Source: Chloroflexota bacterium (GTDB lineage: Bacteria > Chloroflexota > Dormibacteria > Dormibacterales > Dormibacteraceae). Taken from it: a DNA stretch of 64,000 bases. The notes under the pieces were generated by a model. It was given only the letters and a program-made list of their open reading frames with translations. It was not told the origin of the DNA and made no database searches. Shown here piece after piece: positions 13,830 to 28,477 of the stretch (position 1 is its first letter; each line of letters starts with the position of its first letter). Both the position numbers and the translations under genes were made by a program. The stretch covers positions 1 through 64,000 of the forward strand of contig VBGP01000012.1 of NCBI GenBank assembly GCA_005880795.1. The letters run 5' to 3'.

Positions 13830-13881
13830 CTGCTAGGACTATACCCAGGGCCGGTTGGCGGTTATTCCTATGAGACCTGCT

Positions 13882-14039
13882 GGGAGCCCTCGGCGAGCGA
13901 TTCGGCGCCGAGGTGGTCCAGCTGCAAGGCGCGGCCGAGCACCGCAGCGAGCGCATCCGTTGATGCGTGAGCGAGGAGCGGAGGCCGCAACGCAGCAGAT
14001 GGGCCGCATTCGGCGTCGAAGCGCCGTCGAGGGTCTCCC
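13882..14039. repeat. long-hairpin dispersed repeat, copy A (~158 bp)
   Basis: Recognisably homologous to 63394-63552 over its full length; ends GGGAGCCCTCG / CGAGGGTCTCCC are inverted repeats; arms pair inward to central CGCAT-ccgttg-ATGCG. Confidence 0.8.
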
Positions 14040-14066
14040 GGCGGGTCTCATATAGTGGGGAGGCCG

Positions 14067-14954
14067 ATGGAAACTGAATATCTCGATGAAGAGGCGGTGA
14101 TCTCCCTCTACAACAAGGTCCGGACCGGCAAGAAGACCTGGCCGACCGGTATCTGGACCTCTCCCGCCGCCCTCCAGTACGCGGTCACGGTGTTCGATTA
14201 CTGGATCCACAACGTGATGGGCTGGAAGGGTTGGCCCGACGCCCGCGGCAAGGTCACCCCCGCCCTGCTGGAGGAGCACCGCCTGGCGGACCTCGTCGAG
14301 AGCGTCTTCGTGCCCGAGTTCGGCGATGACTGGCTGGACTTCGAGGTCGTGCTCAACGAGAGCATGCGGCTGTCGGAGGACGAGGGCTGGTCGCCTGACC
14401 TTTCAGACCGCCAGGAGCGCGTCGAGGCCGCGTTCGAGCACGCTTTCGAGAAGCTGATCGGGTCGCCCAAACAGCAGCCGAAGCTGCTCCCGACCTACCA
14501 CCGCTTTCGCAATCACCTGCTGCGCATGTGGAGCGCTTTCCAGGAGGCGCAGGCCGAGCACGACAAGGCGGAGCGCGAGTCGGCCGAGCGTTTCTGGGCG
14601 CAGCTGCGTTTGGTGAGGAGCAGCCGCGGCCAGGCGGCCGAGGCGTGGTCGATCGTCAACAGCGACGACGAACGGCGCGGCGAGGTGGTGGTGGTCTGGG
14701 GCGAGCCCCATCCGTATTGCGTCGTCGTGCTGGACGACGATGTGGAGGCCGGCGGGTGGGAGCAGGTCATCTACCGGCTCGAGCAGGAGATCCTCGTCGA
14801 GGAGCCGGGCGTGGTCAGCTACGCGGTCTGGCAGAAAGGATTCGTCGGCGAGTACTACCGCTGCGCGGATTGCGGCGAGCTGCACAGCCAGTTCGACGAA
14901 GACACAAGCAACGGCCTACGCCTGGACGACCTGGAGCCGCCAGAAGAGAAATAG
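14067..14954 (+). CDS. hypothetical protein with C-terminal zinc-knuckle-like CADCGELH motif
   Basis: METEYLDEEAVISLYNKVRTGKKTWPTGIWTSPAALQYAV...; SD GGGGAGG; no family recognised. Confidence 0.75.
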   Translation: METEYLDEEAVISLYNKVRTGKKTWPTGIWTSPAALQYAVTVFDYWIHNVMGWKGWPDARGKVTPALLEEHRLADLVESVFVPEFGDDWLDFEVVLNESMRLSEDEGWSPDLSDRQERVEAAFEHAFEKLIGSPKQQPKLLPTYHRFRNHLLRMWSAFQEAQAEHDKAERESAERFWAQLRLVRSSRGQAAEAWSIVNSDDERRGEVVVVWGEPHPYCVVVLDDDVEAGGWEQVIYRLEQEILVEEPGVVSYAVWQKGFVGEYYRCADCGELHSQFDEDTSNGLRLDDLEPPEEK

Positions 14955-17330: not shown

Positions 17331-17423
17331 GGGGAGGTGGCTGAGTGGCCGAAAGCACCCGCCTGCTAAGCGGGTAGGGGGTGTAAAGCTCCCTCGAGGG
17401 TTCGAATCCCTCCCTTCCCGCCA
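17331..17423 (+). tRNA. tRNA-Ser(GCT)
   Basis: Acceptor GGGGAGG/CCTTCCC, long variable arm, anticodon loop CTGCTAA (GCT), T-arm GAGGGTTCGAATCCCTC, G discriminator and encoded CCA. Confidence 0.95.
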
Positions 17424-28385: not shown

Positions 28386-28477
28386 TGGCGGAGGGGCTGG
28401 GATTTGAACCCAGGATAGGCTTGCACCTATAACAGTTTTCAAGACTGTCGCCATCAACCGGACTCGGCCACCCCTCC
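28386..28477 (-). tRNA. tRNA-Ser(TGA)
   Basis: Reverse strand GGAGGGGTGGCCGAG...CAGTCTTGAAAACTG...GGGTTCAAATCCCAGCCCCTCCGCCA; anticodon TGA, long variable arm, encoded CCA. Confidence 0.95.

Follow-up and report, generated by a model that had tools for sequence, protein, structure and literature searches.

The IS200/IS605 elements, IS608 among them, are recognized as folded single-stranded DNA in a strand-specific manner, and base pairing between element and target takes part in their target recognition; insertion of the IS608 type leaves no target duplication. REPINs, with their RAYT/TnpA_REP transposases, form within-genome populations of small, dispersed, intergenic hairpins, and the form recognized is likely a folded single strand (PMC3116915, PMC8049555, PMC8266576). 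ERIC, RU-1/RU-2, the Rickettsia palindromic elements and bcr1 of Bacillus cereus are MITE-like palindromic repeats: non-coding, intergenic sequences of 100–180 bp with traits of mobility and a stable end-to-end fold (PMC2229807, PMC2759123, PMC10969869, PMC3446304).

The element described here resembles both of the latter groups in these respects. It is a non-coding sequence of ~180 nt that folds end to end into one long hairpin and is present in multiple copies in genomes of uncultured soil bacteria. Two copies, A and B, lie in the window, that is, the whole 64,000-nt stretch of DNA that was analysed. We read it, with a probability of roughly 60%, as a non-autonomous, palindromic mobile element (a ‘foldback’ element) in Dormibacterota and their relatives, a folded single strand being the form in which it is recognized and moved.

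Anatomy and distribution of the hairpin

Both copies lie where the preliminary description had placed them (13882–14039 and 63394–63552) and are homologous over their full length, with 86% identity; the lengths given there were slightly short, as the stems reach further on both sides: that of copy A opens with GAGACC at 13872 and closes with GGTCTC at 14049, and that of copy B opens with GAAGTC at 63384 and closes with GACTTC, the last base of which is 63562 (Table 1). The single end-to-end hairpin proposed for copy A has a z score of −7.5 relative to dinucleotide shuffles, with 0 of 200 shuffles as good. The outermost arms of the two copies are almost wholly different in sequence, yet paired within each copy.

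Table 1. Coordinates of the two element copies, their target duplications and their conserved parts in the window
Feature	Position	Strand	Remarks
TAT, left target duplication of copy A	13869–13871		Empty site TTATTCCTAT-AGTGG compared with filled site
Copy A of the element	13872–14050	+	Stem GAGACC...GGTCTC paired end to end; empty orthologous sites in ~15 relatives
Conserved inner part of copy A	13902–14019	+	Covariance model R1, 125.5 bits; apex with two predicted tandem G.A motifs
TAT, right target duplication of copy A	14051–14053		Starts a TATAGT box, restored by the duplication
GAAGTC, target bases (apt-like coding sequence) forming the stem base of copy B	63384–63389	+	
GTCA, left target duplication of copy B	63387–63390		Empty site GAAGTCATACG in G010
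Copy B of the element	63391–63566 (whole extent ~63384–63566)	+	Between NAD-epimerase stop codon and GTG start of apt-like gene
Conserved inner part of copy B	63415–63531	+	Covariance model R1, 137.8 bits
GACTTC, right-arm end of copy B	63557–63562	+	Complementary to target bases 63384–63389
GTCA, right target duplication of copy B	63566–63569		Includes epimerase stop codon (TCA, 63567–63569)

The conserved inner part of the element terminates in CGAGCANCGNAGCGAGCGCATC-loop-GATGCGTGAGCGAGNAGCGNAG; beyond the tip stem follow GA/AG, GC/GC and GA/AG pairs which, judged from their sequence, would form two tandem G.A motifs. Per base of the left arm, mean entropy falls from 1.00 in the outer stem through 0.56 in the middle to 0.49 in the core, and copies with near-identical cores (4–7 differences in ~142) have clearly different outer arms, each of them self-complementary. 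The conserved parts are the apical core and the paired stem; the outer stem is free to change in sequence but stays paired.

Further copies were sought in the host genome, as the preliminary description had proposed, and are present: in G000 (3.2 Mb, 217 contigs), blastn finds 10 and covariance model R1 finds 13. With the same model, 34 of the 37 genomes of the host’s own family hold 2–47 copies each, and carriage is patchy in two other families of the same class, with at least 60 copies in G046. A sample of 301 genomes from the phylum added as carriers only ten genomes of one other family (f21), and an exact core pattern run over 85,462 species genomes matched 25 stretches, all from Candidatus Dormiibacterota or ‘Chloroflexi’ soil MAGs. 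In outline, the element occurs in family f1 outside genus g12, in G046 and in the carriers of f21. The copies in f21 (L344–L353), which belongs to another class of the phylum, have the same apical core on a shorter stem. In contrast to the single copies elsewhere, cores can be tandem in G046, at a spacing of ~130 nt; L358 (C223) has four matches (see also L356 and L348). At L026 (G013) and L189 (G011), the cores are identical (0/144) and the flanks only 85–92% identical, which reflects either strong conservation or recent conversion or transfer. The earlier failure to recognize any named family holds for Rfam, where there is no match at the gathering score and the best score at a relaxed threshold is 13.1 bits, compared with a cut-off of 268; there was also no match among phages, plasmids or viral contigs, and the literature on repeats of these hosts yielded nothing relevant. 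The repeat family is abundant in its lineage of uncultured soil bacteria and apparently has no name.

Insertion into intact sites and the arm–target match

The suspected mobility of the element is borne out by precise empty orthologous sites and short target duplications. At the copy A site, ~15 relatives are empty (TTATTCCTAT-AGTGG), G000 and G014 are filled (TTATTCC-TAT-element-TAT-AGTGG) and G013 has a relic from which the centre is deleted. In G010 and others, stop and start overlap at the copy B site (GTCGT-ATGA-CTTC, gene strand); in G000 and G016 the element lies between two copies of (G)TCA, with the result that the epimerase stop is retained and the apt-like gene gains a GTG start. 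These two flanking genes are both on the minus strand, and the left GTCA shares bases with the region of the apt-like gene’s start codon (CAC, 63389–63391). purB and purC overlap in most relatives, have the element in G015 and G018, and have a relic in G013; the duplication at L006 is TAG, and other loci also give empty and filled orthologous sites. A blind scan of 94 copies found the same 4-mer at one fixed spacing in 11 (1.5 expected), nearly always GTCA or ATCA. The element inserts into intact sites with target duplications of 3–5 bp, often at overlapping stop/start codons (ATGA). Because insertion and duplication at ATGA spare both genes, they suffice to account for placement between genes without a regulatory role. 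Any one site is occupied in few genomes (for copies A and B, 2 of ~20), and relics left by deletion occur frequently (L103, L268, L270 and L322).

The gene adjoining copy A (14067–14954) encodes a conserved protein without a Pfam match and is 91–98% identical in most family genomes. Between it and moeB/thiF lies a divergent intergenic region (13835–13871 and 14050–14067) that shows strong conservation within the genus (ACTATACCC...TTATTCCTATAGT-ATG). Each of the two starts has a TATAGT box a few bases upstream, an arrangement that suggests leaderless divergent transcripts; copy A splits one of these boxes, and the target duplication restores it. Elsewhere in the window, tRNA genes (Rfam) lie at 17331–17420 and 28389–28477. 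At copy B, the element’s minus strand reads open, in frame with the apt-like gene, and the two together give a 295-aa ORF (62867–63754) with a false N-terminus, and such N-termini are also found at L015 and L175. The open minus strand is thus an annotation hazard that adds false N-termini to real genes.

In the 18 ATGA-type copies, inserted at TCA or a near variant of it, the right-arm end is complementary to target bases on the left side of the duplication: in 18/18, 18/18, 17/18 (plus one G.T) and 18/18 copies at positions 1–4, in 9/18 at position 5, and at background (~0.2) at positions 6–8. When the arm of one copy is set against the flank of another, the corresponding values at positions 1–4 are 0.46, 0.47, 0.29 and 0.50. 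The outermost 4 bp of the stem in these 18 copies are formed by the arm paired with the target’s own bases. The target bases at purC are found in empty relatives too and therefore predate the insertion. Either the target bases are copied on insertion, or a matching target is chosen, or selection re-matches the arm.

Codon 2 at the L003 locus is AGC in most empty relatives; G016 also has AGC, with the arm GAGCGCG, and G000 and G007 have ATC, with the arm GATCGCG. These combinations of codon and arm imply that one or more compensatory double changes followed insertion. Target selection by a guide already present in the arm is not favoured, as the empty relatives at L003 are without the GATCGC seen in filled ones. 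An inverted target copy of 10 nt, suggested by L237 and by copy B compared with G010 (9/10 each), is no general rule, positions 6–8 being at background in the 18 copies.

Pairing constrained on the + strand

Covariation had been guessed from two copies; tested on 32, 97.3% of cells are paired, with double changes at 37 of 55 pairs, and the covariation score is 0.414, compared with 0.141 for shuffled and at most 0.071 for slid alignments. Over 99 distinct copies, 97.2% are paired, as opposed to 25–40% in out-of-register columns, and the check on arm mutations over many copies, also proposed in the preliminary description, found pairing kept far more often than broken. Mismatches at consensus pairs in these 99 copies, read on one strand, comprise 385 G.T and 25 A.C; those in the outer and middle arms, from an alignment that gave G.T and A.C equal score, comprise 282 and 23. 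At some positions G.T is preferred, as at model pairs 81–98 (83/99) and 44–136 (68/96).

Relative to the element, the neighbouring genes of ~98 copies are oriented −− in 57, ++ in 21, −+ in 11 and +− in 8. The G.T:A.C skew is 172:14 where both neighbours run against the element and 51:6 where both run with it: pairing is constrained on the + strand of the element only, whatever the direction of the neighbouring genes. Since G.T exceeds A.C on one strand in every gene context, it is the folded + strand, as ssDNA or RNA, that is selected, and not the flanking mRNA; and since both neighbours run against the structured strand in most copies, the element does not behave as an mRNA-borne regulator of these neighbours. 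Two related candidates fall on the same data. A cis-regulatory mRNA element was rejected because neighbour orientation is not constant and the G.T skew is alike in all contexts, and translational coupling, in which a hairpin joins stop and start in the mRNA, fits the geometry but is contradicted by the strand polarity of the antisense copies.

Complementary arms could also arise without selection on the fold if hairpin-templated repair or template switching copied one arm onto the other. Near-identical cores with very different, self-complementary outer arms (L007/L026 and L187/L192) are what arm-to-arm copying would give. Such repair should, however, erase mismatches and internal loops, both of which are kept across copies, and it should not retain G.T while removing A.C in every context. 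We consider this concerted evolution of the palindrome very improbable.

Among 18 pairs of copies that share a site, joint changes in the two arms number 85 (20.8 expected), of which 74 are compensatory (8.8 expected). The core tree separates many of these pairs, for example L001/L009, which implies repeated insertion at one site or replacement, and unrelated copies recur at one site, as do copy A and L009. Sister pairs alone give 16 double changes compared with ~4 expected, seven of the 16 coming from L023/L147, and some orthologues (L172/L175) decay without compensation. In view of the pairs that lie apart in the core tree, the smaller number of changes left in sister pairs, the decay and the relics, we read the covariation as having accrued mostly along active lineages, with a smaller part arising in place.

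The strand specificity could instead be that of a dispersed functional structured RNA, the host keeping the copies for a + strand transcript that acts in trans or in cis. G.T-tolerant, strand-specific pairing and conserved G.A loops are typical of RNA, compensatory change in sister copies is above expectation, and the core is more conserved than the flanking genes at some loci (L026/L189). By contrast, the 57 copies antisense to both neighbours have no evident + strand promoter there, sites are occupied in few genomes, deletion relics are common, and the decay at L172/L175 is that of true orthologues. We regard a structured RNA as possible, if unlikely, and a host function is not required by the data. 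Counting against the foldback reading, the extra compensation in sister pairs and the changes at L003 are unexplained by selection for transposition alone. Also against it, the searches for a mobilizing gene, described below, yielded none.

Mobilizing enzyme, proposed mechanism and known systems

Among the genomes searched, PF01797 (Y1) scores above cut-off only in G027, with control genomes positive. A REPIN/RAYT system is excluded, a Y1 (RAYT/TnpA_REP) gene being absent from every element-bearing genome, and there are no GTAG/CGTC-type tags of paired short REPs, the element’s ends varying from copy to copy. The element is missing from few genomes of the family; G027 (L204 and L206–L215) is among these and alone has Y1 transposases (11 matches). 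RVT_1 occurs sporadically, in 12 of 61 genomes, and is absent from G000, on which grounds a retron or group II intron derivative, or an RT-borne element, was rejected. No transposase-like family recurs beside the copies.

A classical MITE would derive by deletion from a DDE insertion sequence and move as duplex DNA through a transposase bound to its terminal inverted repeats. In favour of this reading, the mobile sequence is short, non-coding and multi-copy and makes short target duplications that include TAG, TCA and TGA, as occur in some IS5-like groups. However, there are no conserved terminal inverted repeats, the outer arms differing even between near-identical cores; the skew of G.T over A.C is not predicted by duplex recognition; and neither a half or autonomous element nor a related insertion sequence was seen in the 0.9 Mb examined around the copies. 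A classical MITE therefore appears quite improbable.

In the foldback reading that we prefer, a folded single strand, either ssDNA or RNA made from the element, would be the form that is recognized and moved. The apical core would be the recognition site and the stem would set where the element is cut and joined; on insertion, the end of the right arm would come to match the target flank, by copying of target bases or by target choice. Y1/RAYT transposases are excluded as the moving enzyme, which is probably not a reverse transcriptase either. Tentatively, and as a proposal that we rate well short of likely, this could be an undescribed mode of transposition in which a short target, such as an overlapping stop/start codon, is cut and the folded strand joined there, its arm end extended on the target flank or chosen by pairing with it, with the apex and not the ends recognized and an enzyme that is neither Y1 nor RT; each copy’s arm would then be matched to its own site. 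The 4-bp match between hairpin base and target is a specific, testable clue to the integration enzyme, and the ~100 copies examined, with hundreds more located, form a natural data set on a mobile element whose defining feature is the folding of a single strand and not its ends.

The preliminary description had suggested a MITE/REPIN-like mobile hairpin or an unnamed structured RNA; mobility and a maintained fold have stood, whereas identity with REPINs or with a classical MITE has not. The element is not accounted for by any known transposon family or mobilizing enzyme. A REPIN consists of two short REPs with tagged ends, whereas the element is a single long hairpin with a conserved apex, makes target duplications and has carriers without a Y1/RAYT gene. 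The ends of the ERIC, RU, Rickettsia and bcr1 repeats differ from those of the element, which are variable and compensated, and in which the outermost stem uses target bases; no sequence relation of the element to such repeats was seen in plasmids, phages or Rfam. To our knowledge, no measurement comparable to the strand-specific G.T skew is available for these repeats. With IS200/IS605 the element shares a strand-specific folded strand and element–target base pairing (see PMC6006769), but unlike IS608 it makes duplications of 3–5 bp, and its carriers are without the Y1 enzyme. Compared with MITEs, it is likewise short, non-coding, multi-copy and target-duplicating, with variable ends in place of conserved terminal inverted repeats. 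It is therefore REPIN-like as a dispersed population of hairpins and MITE-like as a short, target-duplicating sequence, and departs from each in a defining feature.
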